DNA of 35,321 nt from an uncultured Altererythrobacter sp. (GTDB taxonomy: Bacteria; Pseudomonadota; Alphaproteobacteria; Sphingomonadales; Sphingomonadaceae), in NCBI GenBank assembly GCA_938009055.1, contig CALLIO010000117.1, positions 1 to 35,321 on the forward strand, written 5' to 3'. Positions 4,457-31,537 of this stretch are shown here, piece by piece. A program made the position numbers and the translations under genes. Under the pieces are notes generated by a model. That model was given only the letters and a program-made list of their open reading frames with translations, did no database searches and was not told where the DNA came from. The stretch's first letter is position 1, and each line of letters starts with the position of its first letter.

Positions 4457-5653
4457 ATGACTGCCTTTTCTGCCCAAGACCCGATTGTAATCCTCTCCTA
4501 CGCACGCACGCCGATGGGCGGGATGCAAGGTGCATTGGCAGGCGTGGAAGCAACCGATCTGGGGGCAACGGCGGTCAGCGCAGCGGTCGAGCGGTCGGGC
4601 GTTGACGGCGCTGATTTTGACCGCGCCTATATGGGATGTGTGCTTCCTGCTGGCCTTGGCCAAGCCCCTGCCCGCCAAGCTGCGATCAAGGCTGGTCTGC
4701 CCAAATCGGTGCAAGCCACAACGGTCAACAAGGTCTGCGGATCGGGCATGCAAACGGTCATCATGGGATCAGAAGCGCTGGCATCGGGCAGCGTCGATAT
4801 GGTGGTTGCTGGCGGTATGGAGAGCATGACCAATGCGCCATACCTCCTCAAAAAACACCGCAGCGGCGCGCGGATCGGCCACGATACAACATACGATCAC
4901 ATGTTCTTGGACGGGCTGGAAGATGCATACGAACCGGGCCGTGCGATGGGCACTTTTGCTCAAGAAACCGCCAATGCCTACCAGCTCACCCGCGAGGAAA
5001 TGGACGATTACTCGATCGAAAGCCTGCGCCGCGCGAATGCCGCGATTGAAAGCGGGGCCTTTGCCGATGAAGTCGTGCCGGTCACGATTAAGGGGCGCAA
5101 GGGCGACACAGTGGTCGAGCATGACGAGCAACCGGGCAAGGGCCGCCCGGACAAGATCCCGCAATTGCGCGCTGCCTTTGCCAAGGACGGCACCATTACC
5201 GCAGCAACCTCAAGCTCGATCTCGGACGGCGCAGCTGCTGTCGTTCTGACCCGTGAAAGCGTGGCCAAAGACAAGGGTTTGTCGCCAGTGGCAAAAGTCG
5301 TGGCGCTTGCCGCCCATGCTCAAGAACCCGCTGACTTCACCACAGCCCCTGTTGGCGCAATCAATACTCTGCTCAATCGTGCCGGATGGTCGGTTGATGA
5401 TGTGGACTTGTGGGAAGTGAACGAAGCTTTTGCTTGCGTTGCTATGTTCGCCATGCGCGACATCGGCATTGCGCACGAAAAGATCAATGTGAACGGCGGC
5501 GGCACCGCTCTTGGTCACCCCATCGGTGCATCGGGCACGCGGATTATCGTGACGCTAATCAATGCTTTGAAAATGCAGGGCAAGACGAAGGGTGTTGCCT
5601 CGCTGTGCATTGGCGGCGGCGAAGCGACAGCGATTGCTGTCGAGCTGGTCTAA
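4457..5653 (+). CDS. Acetyl-CoA C-acetyltransferase (thiolase)
   Basis: Start at MTAFSAQDPIVILSYARTPMGG inside the longer ORF 3728..5653; NKVCGSGMQTV, VNVNGGGTALGHPIGASGTRI-type and CIGGGEATA motifs. ORF upstream of 4457 is antisense to the ALDH. Confidence 0.95.
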   Translation: MTAFSAQDPIVILSYARTPMGGMQGALAGVEATDLGATAVSAAVERSGVDGADFDRAYMGCVLPAGLGQAPARQAAIKAGLPKSVQATTVNKVCGSGMQTVIMGSEALASGSVDMVVAGGMESMTNAPYLLKKHRSGARIGHDTTYDHMFLDGLEDAYEPGRAMGTFAQETANAYQLTREEMDDYSIESLRRANAAIESGAFADEVVPVTIKGRKGDTVVEHDEQPGKGRPDKIPQLRAAFAKDGTITAATSSSISDGAAAVVLTRESVAKDKGLSPVAKVVALAAHAQEPADFTTAPVGAINTLLNRAGWSVDDVDLWEVNEAFACVAMFAMRDIGIAHEKINVNGGGTALGHPIGASGTRIIVTLINALKMQGKTKGVASLCIGGGEATAIAVELV

Positions 5654-5686
5654 ATCTGGGCCCCTCCCCGCTGAATTAGGCAATTG

Positions 5687-5707
5687 CCCCTTGCCTATGT
5701 TAGCTGA
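5687..5707 (+). terminator. Possible hairpin downstream of the thiolase
   Basis: TAGGCAA-ttgcccc-TTGCCTA, perfect 7-bp arms 33 nt after the stop; no clear T-tract. Confidence 0.35.
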
Positions 5708-5817
5708 GCTGCATCAATATGCGTTTGTTCGCGCGTAGGGGGTCTATTCCCCTTCGAACGGCCAGTAATAAGCATAAGATCGGGCCGCAAATTCGACACG
5801 AATTTGAGGGGAAAATC

Positions 5818-6207
5818 ATGAAAAAGATCGTATTGATTGTAAGCGCGCTTGCGCTTGCTGGCTGTGAAAACCAGGCCGATGCACCAGCTGAAGGTGATGC
5901 CGTAGAAGAGGTTGCAGCAGCGGCCTATCCCGATGGACCAGGTGCATTCACACGCTCGGGCGATAACGGTGAAACGGTAGTCACAACATTAGCCGATGAT
6001 GGCAGTTACACGACCGTTATCGATGGCGAAGAAACGTCAACTGGAACATATACGGTTGATGGCGCGAATATCTGTTTCGAAGGCACGAACACCGGAGATG
6101 AGCCTGAATGTTGGGTCAACTCGGCAATGGGCGAAGATGGATCGTTTGAATCGAGCAGTCCCGACGGCGTTACGTACTCAATTCAAAAAACAGAAGCTGC
6201 GGAATAA
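5818..6207 (+). CDS. Hypothetical lipoprotein
   Basis: Start MKKIVLIVSALALAGCENQ: signal peptide with lipobox LAGC; no recognised domain in the mature part. Confidence 0.75.
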   Translation: MKKIVLIVSALALAGCENQADAPAEGDAVEEVAAAAYPDGPGAFTRSGDNGETVVTTLADDGSYTTVIDGEETSTGTYTVDGANICFEGTNTGDEPECWVNSAMGEDGSFESSSPDGVTYSIQKTEAAE

Positions 6208-6240
6208 TCGCCCGCAAGTTTCGAATATCTGAAAAAGGGG

Positions 6241-6272
6241 AAAGGCAGTCGTGAAGGCTGCCTTTTTCTTTT
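6241..6272. terminator. Intrinsic terminator between convergent genes
   Basis: aaaGGCAGtcgtgaaggCTGCCtttttctttt: GC-rich stem followed by a T-run, with an A-run on the other side, so potentially bidirectional. Confidence 0.7.
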
Positions 6273-6741
6273 AGGGCGCGCCCGTTCCCCACAGCCGGTT
6301 CTCTAGAACCCAGCCTTCGCGTCCCCCGACGTTGAACTCGCACCAACCCGCCTCGCAATCACCAAGCTTGCCGACAACGCCGACTTGCGCATTCCATTTG
6401 ATTGCAGCAGAGGCATTGGGCTCAGCGCGCATCGCCGCCAGCCCTTCGCCGGTGATGATTGCCGTGCGGGTGAGCAGCAATTGGCTTTCATTGACCCAGC
6501 CCTGCGTCCCATCGGGATCCTGCATCAGCCGCCACCCTTCGCGCAAACGCACCACCTTCACCGGCAAACCTTTGCGTTTATAAACCCAGTCGATCTTGAA
6601 ATCCTGACCCGGGCCAACCCGCATATTGACCTCGTCAAACTTCATAGACGCCCAATAGGGTGCCTCGCGCTGCTGGGCGTTTAGCCCAGCGCTGGCGAAC
6701 AACGCCGCTAGTCCCAAAAGTGATGTCAGAATCAATCGCAT
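6271..6741 (-). CDS. SH3 domain (bacterial SH3-like) secreted protein
   Basis: 156 aa with signal peptide; VNMRVGPGQDFKIDWVYKRKGLPVKVVRLREGWRLMQDPDGTQGWVNESQL and a second repeat AAMRAEPNASAAI...GWV. Confidence 0.8.
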   Translation of the reverse strand: MRLILTSLLGLAALFASAGLNAQQREAPYWASMKFDEVNMRVGPGQDFKIDWVYKRKGLPVKVVRLREGWRLMQDPDGTQGWVNESQLLLTRTAIITGEGLAAMRAEPNASAAIKWNAQVGVVGKLGDCEAGWCEFNVGGREGWVLENRLWGTGAP

Positions 6742-6836
6742 AGTGGGCGCGTCCTTAATCGCAGCACGGTGATAGTTTCAAGCTGTTGGTTAACCAGACT
6801 TGACCCGATCTGCCTTAGCGTCCTAGCGCGGGACAC

Positions 6837-7853
6837 ATGGCAACCGACGCAAACCCGCAGCGCAAACCGATCACCCACACGCCCAAAGTGGTGGTGACGC
6901 GGCATTTGATGCCCTCTGTCGAAACGCGGATGAGCGAATTGTTCGATGTTACTCTCAACACAGCAGACGCGCCCTTTTCGCGCGATCAATTGGTCGCAGC
7001 GATGCAGGAATGCGATGTGCTGGTGCCAACTGTCACCGACCGGATTGATGCAGAGATGATCGACGCCGCTGGCGAGAAATTAAAGCTGATTGCCAGCTTT
7101 GGCGCGGGAACGGAACATATTGATCTGGCCGCCGCTGCTGCGCGCAAGATTGTGGTGACGAACACGCCTGGCGTCTTCACCGATGATACTGCCGATATCG
7201 CCATGTGCGGGATTATCGGCGTGCCGCGCCGCATCCGCGAAGGGGTCGAGCTGGTGCGCAGCGGCGGGTGGACTGGATGGGCTCCATCGGGAATGTTGGG
7301 CCGAAAGCTGGGCGGCAAAGTGCTCGGCATTGTGGGCATGGGCCGGATTGGACAGGCCGTGGCGCACCGCGCGCGCGCCTTTGGCCTCGACATTATCTAT
7401 CACAATCGCAAGCCCTTGCCCGAAGCGGTCGAGAGTATGCTGGGCGCGCGCTATGTCGACGATCTCGATAGTTTGGTGAGCCAGTCGGACATTCTTTCGC
7501 TGCACTCACCGCTGACCGAAGCCACCCGCAATATGATCGATGCGCGGCGGCTCGCGCTGATGAAACCGGGTGCTTCGCTGATCAACACGGCCCGCGGCGA
7601 GATGGTCGATACCGAAGCTTTGATCGCAGCGCTTGAAAGCGGCCATCTGGCGGGCGCAGGCTTGGATGTTTATCCCGATGAGCCCAATGTCGACAAGCGC
7701 CTGATCCATCATCCCAATGTGATGACCCTGCCCCATATTGGCAGCGCGACAGCCGAAGGGCGCGAGGCATCGGGCGAGAAAGTAATCGCCAATATCCGCT
7801 TTTGGATGGATGGCCACCGGCCGCCCGATCAGGTGCTTGACGCGCTCGTTTGA
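6837..7853 (+). CDS. D-isomer specific 2-hydroxyacid dehydrogenase
   Basis: 338 aa; LGIVGMGRIGQAVAHRARAFG NAD-binding motif, NTARGEMVDTEAL, GLDVYPDEP, LPHIGSAT. Confidence 0.92.
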   Translation: MATDANPQRKPITHTPKVVVTRHLMPSVETRMSELFDVTLNTADAPFSRDQLVAAMQECDVLVPTVTDRIDAEMIDAAGEKLKLIASFGAGTEHIDLAAAAARKIVVTNTPGVFTDDTADIAMCGIIGVPRRIREGVELVRSGGWTGWAPSGMLGRKLGGKVLGIVGMGRIGQAVAHRARAFGLDIIYHNRKPLPEAVESMLGARYVDDLDSLVSQSDILSLHSPLTEATRNMIDARRLALMKPGASLINTARGEMVDTEALIAALESGHLAGAGLDVYPDEPNVDKRLIHHPNVMTLPHIGSATAEGREASGEKVIANIRFWMDGHRPPDQVLDALV

Positions 7854-23224: not shown

Positions 23225-23860
23225 CTAAGCTCCCGCTTTTCGGGCAACACCCCATTCATTCCAGCTGGCAAAGCGCGGCGCTTTGGGCAGATAGCCCTGC
23301 CCCATAGGCTCAACATCAAAGCCCCCGCCACGCAATGCTGAACCAATCGGACGGGTCAAATGGCATCCGCCCGCCAGCTTCTTCCATGTCGGCTCGATCC
23401 GGTCCTGCCATTTGGCGACCTTGGCATCGGGTGCGCGGCCATGTTCTAGGAAGAGCAAGCGACCACCCGGTTTCAAAATTCGCCGCATTTCTGACATCAC
23501 CTGTGCAGGGTCCTCGACCGAGCACAAAGTGAAGGTGCAGACCACCGTGTCGAACTGGCTATTGCGAAAGGGGATCGCCTCGCCCGCGCCTTCGCGAATG
23601 TCGGTTTTCCAACCCTTCGCCTCTGCCGTTGCGCGCGCTTGATTCAGCAATCCGCCATGCGGGTCGATGCCCGCAAAGCTTGAGATTGCCCCAGTATCAT
23701 AAAATTCTTGGTTGAGGCCGCCGCCGCAGCCCAATTCGAAAACGGCGCCCTTGGCCAAAGGCACGATCTGGCTGCGCCGTTTCATTATCTGACCCTGCCC
23801 GCAGGCAAAGGTGATCAATTTGGGCATGATCTTCGCATCATACCAACTGGCAATTCCCAT
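23225..23860 (-). CDS. Class I SAM-dependent methyltransferase
   Basis: ORF 23225..23875, likely start MGIASWYDAKIMPKLI; VFELGCGGGLNQEFYD, AEAIPFRNSQFDTVVCTFTLCSVEDP-type region, RILKPGGRLLFLEHGRAP. Confidence 0.9.
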   Translation of the reverse strand: MGIASWYDAKIMPKLITFACGQGQIMKRRSQIVPLAKGAVFELGCGGGLNQEFYDTGAISSFAGIDPHGGLLNQARATAEAKGWKTDIREGAGEAIPFRNSQFDTVVCTFTLCSVEDPAQVMSEMRRILKPGGRLLFLEHGRAPDAKVAKWQDRIEPTWKKLAGGCHLTRPIGSALRGGGFDVEPMGQGYLPKAPRFASWNEWGVARKAGA

Positions 23861-23953
23861 CGGTCCCTCTCCCATTGAAGCCTCAACAAGCCCGACGATT
23901 GGAAGAGCAAGCTATCACCAATTTGATGCTTGGCAACACGCCTTTGGAACAGA

Positions 23954-25420
23954 TTATTGCGATTGTGCCTTTATTGCCGCAGCAACTTTGCCAAGCTGCT
24001 CGGCCAACACTGCCTGAAGCTGCTCTGGCGAAAGCGCCGACCAAGCAGTGATCTGCGGCATGGAGAGCCCGATCCGCAAGGTTCCTGCCCATTCGCCGGC
24101 GACCCGTGTCGATTTAACTGGCTGGCCCAGTCGCAATCCAGCAGCTGCCATTGCACGGTAAGCGATCTGCGCTTCATCAAAGCTGCGCATATTGCGGAGC
24201 GAGGATACATCAATTGTGATGAGCGACTGCATCTCGATTGGATGCTCCGCCATCTCTGCTCGCCCGCCATCGGGGTGCGGCTCGACCATCGCAAGGCCAA
24301 GCGGCTCGACCACATGTTGCGCAACGCCGCGGCGAAATTCTGTGATGATGGCATCAATCTGTGCCGGGGCAATGGCCGAGAAACGCTCAAGCTCGAAGAT
24401 CGATGCTTCCAGACGTAGGGCAAGGCCAGGATTGCCGCTGTTTTCAAGCCGTTTTGCTCCAGGCCAATCTTGCGGCCATTCTGCGCGGCGGAATATCTTG
24501 GCAAAACCGGCTGGCAATTGCGGCGCCGCTGCCTGTAAACTCGCTGGCACAAGCGCAAAGCCGTTGAATGGCGGGCCGCCCATAAATTTCGAGCCGGTGA
24601 GGAACACAATCGCCTCGCCGTCCAGATATTCGCGCACCGCCTCGCCGGTAATGCGCGCCTGACACGCATCGATCACAAGCGAGAGCCGGTCGTGATAATG
24701 CGCGCGCAATTGGTCGATATTCTCAAGCGAGGGAAGGATCAGGCCCGTTTTCGAACCATGCACGACATGCAGCAATGCTTGGCGCCCATCCATCGCTGCG
24801 ACGCCCATCTCGATCCGCACCTGCTCGCAAATGTCACCGCTGGTGCGGACTTTACCCTCTAGGCAGCGCAAGGGAATGTCAGCCAGCGAGACCGGCCCCA
24901 GCCCCTCGACCGGCTGCGAAGGCTCGACAGCATATTCAAGCGCCGTTTCCTGCGCGAAATAGCGGCCATGGGCAGAATGAATGCACCCGCTGCCCACTTC
25001 ATCGGCACCCAGCAAGATATTGTGCACGCCCGCAGCGCTATGCGCCGCAGCGAAGCACAAAGCGATATATTCCAAATCCGTCCCTGACGGCGCAAAGATG
25101 ATCCCGGTGCTTTTGTCCAACCCGTAAGCCGCGCGAATTCGCGTGCGCAAATCTTCAAGCTGGAGCGCATAATCGCGGACATCGCTCAAGCTGCGCAAAT
25201 GGGCGAAAGCGTCAGCGGAAATATCATTCGCGGTCGAAGAAGCGAAGGCAGTGATGTCTCTTGGGTAAGGAGCGGAGAGATAGCGATTGAGGCCAGTTTC
25301 CGGATCGAGCGCGATCCGCGCATCGCCCCCGCCCGACATCAGCGCGATCAGCTCGCGGGACTTGGCATCATCGACAAATCCGGCGAGAGGCGCCGAAAGC
25401 GACAGATCAGCAATGGGCAT
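23954..25420 (-). CDS. PLP-dependent fold-type-I enzyme (aminotransferase class V/desulfurase-like), substrate unknown
   Basis: 488 aa; IIFAPSGTDLEYIALCFA, LVIDACQARITGE (PLP Asp), FLTGSKFMGGPPFNGFA (candidate PLP Lys). Confidence 0.75.
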   Translation of the reverse strand: MPIADLSLSAPLAGFVDDAKSRELIALMSGGGDARIALDPETGLNRYLSAPYPRDITAFASSTANDISADAFAHLRSLSDVRDYALQLEDLRTRIRAAYGLDKSTGIIFAPSGTDLEYIALCFAAAHSAAGVHNILLGADEVGSGCIHSAHGRYFAQETALEYAVEPSQPVEGLGPVSLADIPLRCLEGKVRTSGDICEQVRIEMGVAAMDGRQALLHVVHGSKTGLILPSLENIDQLRAHYHDRLSLVIDACQARITGEAVREYLDGEAIVFLTGSKFMGGPPFNGFALVPASLQAAAPQLPAGFAKIFRRAEWPQDWPGAKRLENSGNPGLALRLEASIFELERFSAIAPAQIDAIITEFRRGVAQHVVEPLGLAMVEPHPDGGRAEMAEHPIEMQSLITIDVSSLRNMRSFDEAQIAYRAMAAAGLRLGQPVKSTRVAGEWAGTLRIGLSMPQITAWSALSPEQLQAVLAEQLGKVAAAIKAQSQ

Positions 25421-25504
25421 AGGCGCGTGTTCTCGTTTTCACCTTGGCAAATGCGACATCCGATCTCTATAGGCCGCGCTCCCATCAGGAAAGGCACTTT
25501 TGCA

Positions 25505-26521
25505 GTGGCATCCCCACTTACCCCGCTAAAACTTGACGAAGCGACGCGTAGGCGCGTCAAAATCCTCTTCATCGCCAAAAATGCGCTGTGGGATGGAAAG
25601 TTTCACGAGGCTGATGGCAACCATGCCTTTTATCACCGCGAGATGCGCGAAGTGCTCGAAGGTTTGGGATTAAACCTTCAGGTGGAAGACAATTTCGAAG
25701 TTCTGTTCGACAAGCCGGATGTGGATTTCGTCTTACCACTGCTCAACCGAGCGGGCTTCTTCAATTCCGAAATGCTGCTGCCTTTGTTGTGCGAGCGTGC
25801 AGGCATTCCTTATCTTGGCGCAAGCCCCATTCTGCGCGGTCTATCGGATGACAAACATCTGGCCAAACGCGCCGCCCAAGAGGCCGATGTGCCAACCGCG
25901 CCATGGGCGATCTATCGTGCGGGAGCCCCTATTGAAGAAGCGAAATGCCCCAAGGCGGATCGCTATGTCATCAAACCCAATGCATCCTCGGCCAGTTGGG
26001 GCGTTGGCGATGCAAGTGATTGGGCAGGCGTGAAAGAAGCGATCCTTCGCATCCATAATGACGAGGCAAACGGCGGACAGGACGCTTTGGTCGAGCCCTT
26101 CATCGACGGCAGCGATGTCGAAGTGCCGGTTGTCACTATCAATGGTGAGCCGCAAATTTTACCGATGATGATTTTTCGCCAAGCTGATCCATCGCATCTG
26201 CGCACTTATCAGGAAAAGCGCGATTTGGTTGACCGCAGCCAGAAATACTCGCTCGATCCGTTCGAGGATGAAGCGATGGTTGCGAAGATTGACGCGCTGA
26301 CCCGCAAGGCTTGGGAGGAATACCGCCCGTTCGACTATGGCCGCTTCGAATTCCGTGTGAATGAGGAAACCGGCGAAGTGACGTTCCTCGAGCTTAATCT
26401 CAATTGCAATTTGTGGTCGCAAAAGGTGTTTGGCCGCGCGGCGCAATTGGCAGGATGGACGCAAGTGCAGCTGATCGAAACGATCTTGGCCGAGGGGCTG
26501 CGTCGGCACGGATTGCTATAA
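25505..26521 (+). CDS. ATP-grasp enzyme of the D-alanine-D-alanine ligase type, substrate unknown
   Basis: GTG start at 25505 with AGGAAAGG upstream (alternative ATG at 25451); GIPYLGASPILRGLSDDKHLAKRAAQEADVPTAPW, YVIKPNASSASWGVG, VEPFIDGSDVEVPVV, EVTFLELNLNCNLWS. Confidence 0.82.
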   Translation: MASPLTPLKLDEATRRRVKILFIAKNALWDGKFHEADGNHAFYHREMREVLEGLGLNLQVEDNFEVLFDKPDVDFVLPLLNRAGFFNSEMLLPLLCERAGIPYLGASPILRGLSDDKHLAKRAAQEADVPTAPWAIYRAGAPIEEAKCPKADRYVIKPNASSASWGVGDASDWAGVKEAILRIHNDEANGGQDALVEPFIDGSDVEVPVVTINGEPQILPMMIFRQADPSHLRTYQEKRDLVDRSQKYSLDPFEDEAMVAKIDALTRKAWEEYRPFDYGRFEFRVNEETGEVTFLELNLNCNLWSQKVFGRAAQLAGWTQVQLIETILAEGLRRHGLL

Positions 26522-26780: not shown

Positions 26781-26993
26781 ATGAGTAAAACTGGCACAGT
26801 AAAATTCTTCAACACCGACAAAGGCTACGGCTTCATTCAACCTGACGATGGTTCGAGCGATAGCTTCGTACACATCAGCGCCGTTCAGGCCGCTGGTATG
26901 CAGACGCTCGATAAAGACCAGCGTCTCAACTACGAAGTTGAAACCGGCAACAATGGCAAAGCCAGCGCGGTGAACCTGTCCGCTGCTGACTAA
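26781..26993 (+). CDS. cspA: Cold-shock protein
   Basis: MSKTGTVKFFNTDKGYGFIQPDDGSSDSFVHISAVQAAG; SD AAAGGAAC upstream. CSD RNP1 and RNP2 motifs. Confidence 0.96.
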   Translation: MSKTGTVKFFNTDKGYGFIQPDDGSSDSFVHISAVQAAGMQTLDKDQRLNYEVETGNNGKASAVNLSAAD

Positions 26994-30469: not shown

Positions 30470-31537
30470 CTAGGCGACTTTTGCAGCCTCAGCGTGATCT
30501 GCCAGTCGGCGCTGGGCAGCCACCAGTCGGTTCATCACTTTCAGGTCATTTTCACGCAGCTTCAAAGCAGTATCCGCCCACAGTTCGGTAATCCGGTTGA
30601 GTTCATCGAGCTGCAAGTCCCAGCTGATCTTCATCGCTTTGCGCGAGCCGACAAGACCGGCGTGGCGCCGCTGCGATTTCTTGATGAAGTCGCGGCAAGC
30701 ATTGATCCCGTCTCCTGGCTCAGCAAGTTGATGGACAATCCCCAGATCATACATCTCTTCAGCCGTATAGGTCTGGTTCGAAACGATAATCCGGTCAGCC
30801 ATCGCACTGCCAAGCTTGCGTGAAAGCAGCGCATGGGCGCCCATCCCTGGGAAAAGGCCGAACATAACTTCGGGCAGGCCAAACGTCGCAGTTCGCTCGG
30901 CAATGATATAGTCAAAGGATAGCAAAGCTTCGAACCCACCACCAAGCGCAGCCCCCTGGACAAGGCCGACCGTCAGCATGTCCATGTTCAGCGTGTTGAT
31001 GTTGCGTTCAAGTATCCGGCAGCAGCGATGACCATAGCTGACCAAACCATCGCGGTCGCGCTCGCGGATCAATTGCTGGAACAGCGCGAGATCACCGCCA
31101 AAGCAGAACACATCTTTCGCACGGCTGCCCAAAATCAGATAGTTCAACGGCACTTTGTCTGGACCGAAACCGCTTTCGATCTGATCCTGCCAATTCTCAA
31201 AATCATGCAGCATGCTTGGCGTAAAGCTGGGCCGCGATTCGGGGTTCATGAAAGTCCACAAGGCGCGTTGCTGCTCGTCATAAAGAACGTCCAGCTCCTC
31301 AAGCTCAAAAAGCTTAGCAGGGATTGCTGCATGCAGAGCGCTCTCTGCAAACATCTCGTCATCGCCCGTAAGGGGGATCGCTCTATTGATTGCGCCGTCC
31401 ATCACTTCTTTTAGCTCGCTCCGCCCTTTATTGTCTGCGAACTCAATTCCACTCCGCGGGTCACTCGAACCTTTTGGAAGATGTGAAACGAAACTAGGCT
31501 CGCTGGCGGACGGTTTGCAAATGGAAAGATGTTTCAT
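30470..31537 (-). CDS. RpfF-like DSF synthase / enoyl-CoA hydratase (crotonase) family protein
   Basis: Crotonase core FCFGGDLALFQQLI, GLVQGAALGGGFEALLSFDYIIAERTATFGLPEVMFGLFPGMGAHALLSRKLG and C-terminal HAGLVGSRKAM...LWADTALKLRENDLKVMNRLVAAQRR resemble RpfF. Two Glu in FEA and PEV are 20 residues apart, as recalled for E141/E161 of RpfF. Start uncertain: 31537, 31402 or 31354. Confidence 0.82.
   Translation of the reverse strand: MKHLSICKPSASEPSFVSHLPKGSSDPRSGIEFADNKGRSELKEVMDGAINRAIPLTGDDEMFAESALHAAIPAKLFELEELDVLYDEQQRALWTFMNPESRPSFTPSMLHDFENWQDQIESGFGPDKVPLNYLILGSRAKDVFCFGGDLALFQQLIRERDRDGLVSYGHRCCRILERNINTLNMDMLTVGLVQGAALGGGFEALLSFDYIIAERTATFGLPEVMFGLFPGMGAHALLSRKLGSAMADRIIVSNQTYTAEEMYDLGIVHQLAEPGDGINACRDFIKKSQRRHAGLVGSRKAMKISWDLQLDELNRITELWADTALKLRENDLKVMNRLVAAQRRLADHAEAAKVA

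Follow-up and report, generated by a model that had tools for sequence, protein, structure and literature searches.

A conserved divergent pair of PLP-enzyme and Ddl-like ATP-grasp genes may be half of a four-gene biosynthesis-and-export module in Sphingomonadaceae

Introduction

In the synthesis of the F420 side chain, the nucleotidyltransferase CofC is paired with the amino-acid ligase CofE. In many sphingomonads, sphingolipids replace LPS. The phosphosphingolipid (ceramide diphosphoglycerate) pathway of Caulobacter is encoded by CC_1168-CC_1152, and CC_1153 is required for the conversion of ceramide phosphoglycerate to the diphosphoglycerate, that is, for the second phosphoglycerate (PMC11324152).

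Here we analyzed a locus in a 35,321-nt stretch of DNA from an uncultured Altererythrobacter sp. (assembly GCA_938009055.1, contig CALLIO010000117.1), hereafter the window. The original prediction suggested that a fold-type I PLP enzyme and an ATP-grasp ligase, encoded divergently, ligate an unusual amino acid or a dipeptide that is tailored by a nearby methyltransferase. The window lies on contig C117 of a 2.49-Mb, 85% complete genome (G000) near Altererythrobacter; a metagenome-assembled genome of that name encodes a PLP protein with 68% identity.

Results

The PLP and ligase genes lie on opposite strands with a gap of 84 nt, as originally predicted (Table 1). The sequence AGGAAAGG is found at 25487-25494, 10 nt upstream of the GTG start of the ligase at 25505. 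A longer mechanical ORF of the ligase, starting from ATG 25199, was rejected because it runs into the PLP gene and is unsupported by relatives.

Table 1 Coordinates of the pair and its neighbor in the window
Feature	Position	Strand	Remarks
PLP-dependent enzyme, fold-type I, class V-like, uncharacterised family	23954..25420	-	488 aa; start ATG 25420, stop 23954 (ORF reading)
Divergent intergenic region	25421..25504		84 nt
Ddl-like ATP-grasp ligase	25505..26521	+	338 aa; GTG start
Class I SAM methyltransferase (PF08241)	23225..23875	-	78 nt downstream of the PLP gene; neighbor only, judged outside the system

Among 301 sampled genomes of the family, the PLP gene is found in 48 and the ligase (E<=1e-30) in 103. 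The ligase is present in 46 of the 48 genomes with the PLP gene (Fisher p=6e-23; p-values here and below are inflated by the non-independence of the sampled genomes). In all 46, the two genes are adjacent, on the same contig and divergent, with a median gap of 153 nt, so the neighborhood conservation expected of the pair was borne out. The distance between the ends of the two alignments is 77-293 nt in 45 genomes and 1221 nt in one. Outside Sphingomonadaceae, both genes are rare across the class. In the ligase tree, the copies divergent to a PLP gene form one clade of 30, containing one PLP-less subclade, and the divergent arrangement is missing from the basal branches. The tree and the pairing kept in 46 of 46 genomes indicate that the arrangement is old and retained. 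These observations support a conserved functional association between the two genes. A regulatory region common to both is plausible, and a promoter scan of the 84-nt intergenic region found no sigma-70-like site.

Two variants of the arrangement were seen. The PLP genomes without a ligase at the above threshold, G230 and G267, carry a diverged PLP copy (36-38%) in a common conserved block without any ATP-grasp gene (L082, G230:C17; L092, G267:C35). At other loci, among them L068, L075, and L077, another ligase paralogue with about 47-54% identity to that of the window lies just past the PLP gene, and ligase-PLP-ligase arrangements are found in G100, G004, G250, G106, G170, and G217.

The proposed tailoring role of the methyltransferase did not hold. 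Its gene tracks the rne neighborhood, even in genomes without the PLP gene: our neighborhood comparison found it at rne in L083, L085, and L098, all of which have no PLP gene, and most PLP loci are without it. It is therefore not a part of the system, since its synteny with rne is independent of the PLP gene. Two other window genes were noted. A small cold-shock-domain-like gene (MSKTGTVKFFNTDKGYGFIQ...; 26781-26993, plus strand), identified by eye, lies 259 nt 3' of the ATP-grasp gene. A crotonase-fold protein (30470-31537, minus strand) exceeds the NF006452 cut-off and matches RpfF, the diffusible signal factor synthase, well but under the threshold (209 bits versus 550).

The original prediction covered a true and conserved association but only part of it: the strongest partner of the ligase is an NTP-transferase and not the PLP enzyme. 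In a neighborhood comparison of 40 loci, the ligase gene is often followed by that of a MobA-like NTP-transferase (PF12804, hereafter NTPase), a Wzx/PST flippase (PF01943) is often nearby, and a second ATP-grasp (PF14397) is present in some branches. Across the 301 genomes, a strong NTPase homologue (E<=1e-44, with counts tallied by hand from the results table) is present in 101 of the 103 ligase genomes versus 9 of the 198 others (Fisher p=2e-66). The two exceptions are G052 and G249 (73% complete). Since the flippase family is broad, its genome-wide co-occurrence is uninformative, and only linkage counts. Such linkage recurs. In G068 (L214) and G090 (L216), the four genes form one block with NTPase-ligase on one side and PLP-flippase on the other, the PLP and flippase genes being 16 nt (G068) and 33 nt (G090) apart. 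The same block is found in G084, by coordinates as far as the contig end, and all four genes are within a few kilobases in G151 (L069) and G153 (L075).

In the genome of the window, the NTPase gene (4866-5675) and the flippase gene directly after it (5653-6987) are on contig C206, unlinked to the pair on C117. The valine-degradation and glycine-cleavage genes around them were taken as chromosomal neighbors only. Where unlinked, the NTPase may act in another pathway. Ligase-NTPase operons occur in many genomes, including PLP-less ones, and about half of the ligase genomes have no PLP gene, which makes the PLP enzyme accessory. Genomes of one PLP-less branch, G116 and G292 among them, have the ligase and NTPase together with a GT4 glycosyltransferase, a flippase, a PF14397 protein, and an AMP-ligase. 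We found no enzyme for lipid-carrier attachment in consistent linkage with the module loci. An anti-phage defence system was discarded as a candidate, as no PADLOC model matches the PLP, ATP-grasp, NTPase, or flippase proteins.

We hold with about even confidence that the pair is half of a four-gene biosynthesis-and-export module, mostly confined to Sphingomonadaceae, with a lipid-linked amino-acid product of the envelope. An amide or peptide ligase acting with an amino-acid PLP enzyme, as originally proposed, is still a sensible reading, but the NTPase and flippase partners point away from a free dipeptide and toward an envelope molecule that is exported. It is possible, though we doubt it, that the pair makes a soluble dipeptide or modified amino acid and that the NTPase and flippase form a separate envelope pathway merely co-occurring in the same lineages. 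The unlinked NTPase and flippase genes in the genome of the window fit this alternative, as do the NRPS and peptide-metabolism contexts of PLP relatives and the distant ATP-grasps after a lysine 2,3-aminomutase in G617 (L115), both described below. It is harder to reconcile with the nearly one-to-one co-occurrence of ligase and NTPase over 301 genomes, with their shared operon in many genomes, PLP-less ones included, and with the tight PLP-flippase tandems of G068 and G090.

The PLP protein matches no Pfam or NCBIfam family, and a PDB search with the single sequence gave nothing useful. When a profile of the family was compared with solved structures, the best match was the cysteine desulfurase 1t3i (E=0.024), in an alignment that places D251-A-C-Q254 and K278. 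In profile-profile comparisons, the SufS type matched in the same register (E=2.3e-5, probability 76, 256 columns). The E values were 0.11 for the IscS type, 0.15, out of register, for the glycine decarboxylase / PLP decarboxylase set, and 0.37 between the PLP and ATP-grasp sets. K278, D251, and Q254 are invariant and in class V order, in a register matching both SufS and 1t3i. K278 is predicted to be the Schiff-base lysine, and D251 and Q254 are predicted to contact PLP. The AlphaFold model of the PLP protein has a pLDDT of 39, and that of the ATP-grasp protein is likewise of low quality. Position 437, the sole C-terminal cysteine candidate, is Cys in many sequences, but the window protein and L001 carry Ser there, so there is no conserved persulfide cysteine. 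These comparisons favor a fold-type I enzyme like those of class V and do not favor a desulfurase.

PLP relatives with 27-39% identity are found in other Alphaproteobacteria. In Sinorhizobium medicae, the relative overlaps the 3' end of an NRPS gene. On plasmid pMl1 (L168:1-10485), nitroreductase and phosphopantetheinyl transferase genes are near this relative and the large NRPS, and the operon is found on many S. medicae plasmids. The Neorhizobium relative adjoins a D-aminopeptidase and a D-alanine aminotransferase. The relative in G377 adjoins a PLP decarboxylase; at this locus (L111:7559-13278, G377:C6), a possible small-molecule cluster, it is flanked by a Ferritin-like (PF12902) protein and the 884-aa PLP decarboxylase protein. 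These contexts suggest amino acid or peptide substrates.

With either reading of the pathway, the PLP enzyme could be an epimerase or racemase that provides the Ddl-like ligase with a D-amino acid. We consider this rather unlikely: the remote similarity is to cysteine desulfurases and not to epimerases specifically, even though isopenicillin N epimerase has the class V fold, the partner is a Ddl-like ligase, D-amino-acid enzymes lie beside the Neorhizobium relative, and the S. medicae relative adjoins an NRPS. Sulfur chemistry, in which a cysteine desulfurase or C-S lyase would pass sulfur to the product, is improbable, as the persulfide cysteine is not conserved (Ser at position 437 in the window protein and L001) and sulfur-transfer genes are not linked, despite 1t3i and the SufS type being the top matches of the two profile searches.

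The ligase motifs listed in the original prediction (GIPYLG, DDKHLAK, YVIKPNASSASWGVG, and LELNLNCNLWS) are all present and conserved. The last had been read as an altered metal site, but it retains the Ddl E-x-N ligands (E296 and N298), and R280, E282, K117, and K157 are conserved as well. The departure from Ddl is in the TxPGMTxHSL stretch after E-x-N and not in the metal ligands. In alignment with the true Ddl of the same genome, whose gene is followed by FtsQ-like and FtsA-like genes (both named from translations), the ligase is without the donor Glu motif of the N-terminus, and LNCNLWSQK stands where the Ddl has the acceptor loop TQPGMTPLSL. Lys307, invariant in a 21-sequence ligase alignment, occupies the position of the substrate-carboxylate Ser of Ddl; residue roles are given after E. 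coli DdlB. With its metal ligands retained and its acceptor side changed, the enzyme has an intact metal site and departs from Ddl on the substrate side.

The ligase matches the Pfam Ddl C-terminal domain (8.7e-13) and, by phmmer, solved Ddls (E about 1e-10), and its score against TIGR01205 is 65.7 bits, far below the curated Ddl level (cut-off 245.65). Judged from its sequence, the ATP-grasp protein is not a Ddl. The Pfam match might suggest a redundant D-Ala-D-Ala ligase that serves peptidoglycan, but this is hardly credible with a score of 66 against a cut-off of 246 bits, a true ddl beside ftsQ/ftsA in the same genome, and neither the donor motif nor the acceptor loop. On Rhizobium symbiotic plasmids, ATP-grasp homologues reach just 26-30% identity and were not counted as the same system. 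In G617 (L115:3109-10880, G617:C41), a lysine 2,3-aminomutase-like protein and two PMT-type glycosyltransferases come before a tandem of two Ddl-like ATP-grasps, and an EamA exporter comes after it; this is possibly a beta-amino-acid ligation cluster.

Within the annotated plasmid collection, the NTPase has its nearest relatives in a phosphosphingolipid cluster of Roseomonas, and those at the sphingomonad loci L202, L203, and L207 are in such a cluster too. From position and description, we infer orthology of the Roseomonas and sphingomonad genes to CC_1153. The NTPases of the module group in a clade of 39 (SH-aLRT 97), apart from the sphingolipid-cluster clade, and are thus paralogues that do not belong to the phosphosphingolipid pathway. 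CDP-alcohol transferase and cytidylyltransferase genes are present in L202, L203, and L207, and also in L170, there with LptF/LptG. None of these was found in the module loci.

Discussion

Sequence and gene context suggest that the four-gene set probably makes and exports an amino-acid-decorated molecule of the cell envelope that is not yet described. The NTPase would activate a phosphorylated headgroup or sugar. Through epimerisation, transamination, or lyase chemistry, for instance, the PLP enzyme would make or modify the amino component, and the ATP-grasp enzyme would convert a carboxylate to an acyl phosphate and join it to an amine in an amide bond. The lipid-linked product would then be flipped to the periplasm by the Wzx/PST-type flippase, where it would probably modify a sphingolipid- or glycan-based envelope. 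Our data show the gene association and the conserved residues, whereas we infer all of these chemical steps; the weakest points are which carrier is used and what the PLP enzyme catalyses.

A more specific form of this proposal is only tentative. The sphingolipid-based envelope of sphingomonads would contain an aminoacylated lipid or lipid-linked glycan that has not been described before, made jointly by a new Ddl-derived amide ligase, a new class V-like PLP family, and a paralogue of the phosphosphingolipid NTP-transferase recruited for headgroup activation.

Literature searches found no description of the four-gene module. It is a combination of known enzyme superfamilies that is undescribed, with a PLP family unnamed in the public libraries searched (Pfam and NCBIfam). 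The PLP family now has a concrete pathway context, and the dedicated set of ligase, NTP-transferase, and flippase suggests an envelope component that is unmapped in sphingomonads.

Compared with known enzymes, the ligase shares with Ddl (TIGR01205, PF07478) the ATP-grasp fold, the ATP-site lysines, the GRxE and ExN metal-site residues, and the order of motifs. The similarity is remote, however: the donor Glu motif is missing, the acceptor loop is replaced by a conserved LNLxCNLWSxK, the N-terminal motif DGNHAxYH is specific to the family, and a separate true Ddl is encoded in the same genome. The PLP protein resembles class V enzymes of the SufS type (PF00266) in its Asp-x-x-Gln ... Lys residues, in register across 256 columns, but it is not recognized by PF00266, has no conserved persulfide cysteine, and has the invariant family motifs GGDxR, SST, SGTD, DACQxR, and TGSKF.

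As for pathways, the module has a homologous NTP-transferase, a flippase, and an envelope setting in common with the Caulobacter phosphosphingolipid pathway. It differs in that its NTP-transferase is in a paralogous clade, no CDP-alcohol transferase, kinase, or LptFG is linked, and the ATP-grasp ligase and PLP enzyme are not described in that cluster. The logic of F420 synthesis is similar by analogy, as a MobA/CofC-like NTP-transferase is again combined with an amino-acid ligase, but the ligase families are unrelated, and the flippase of the module indicates export.
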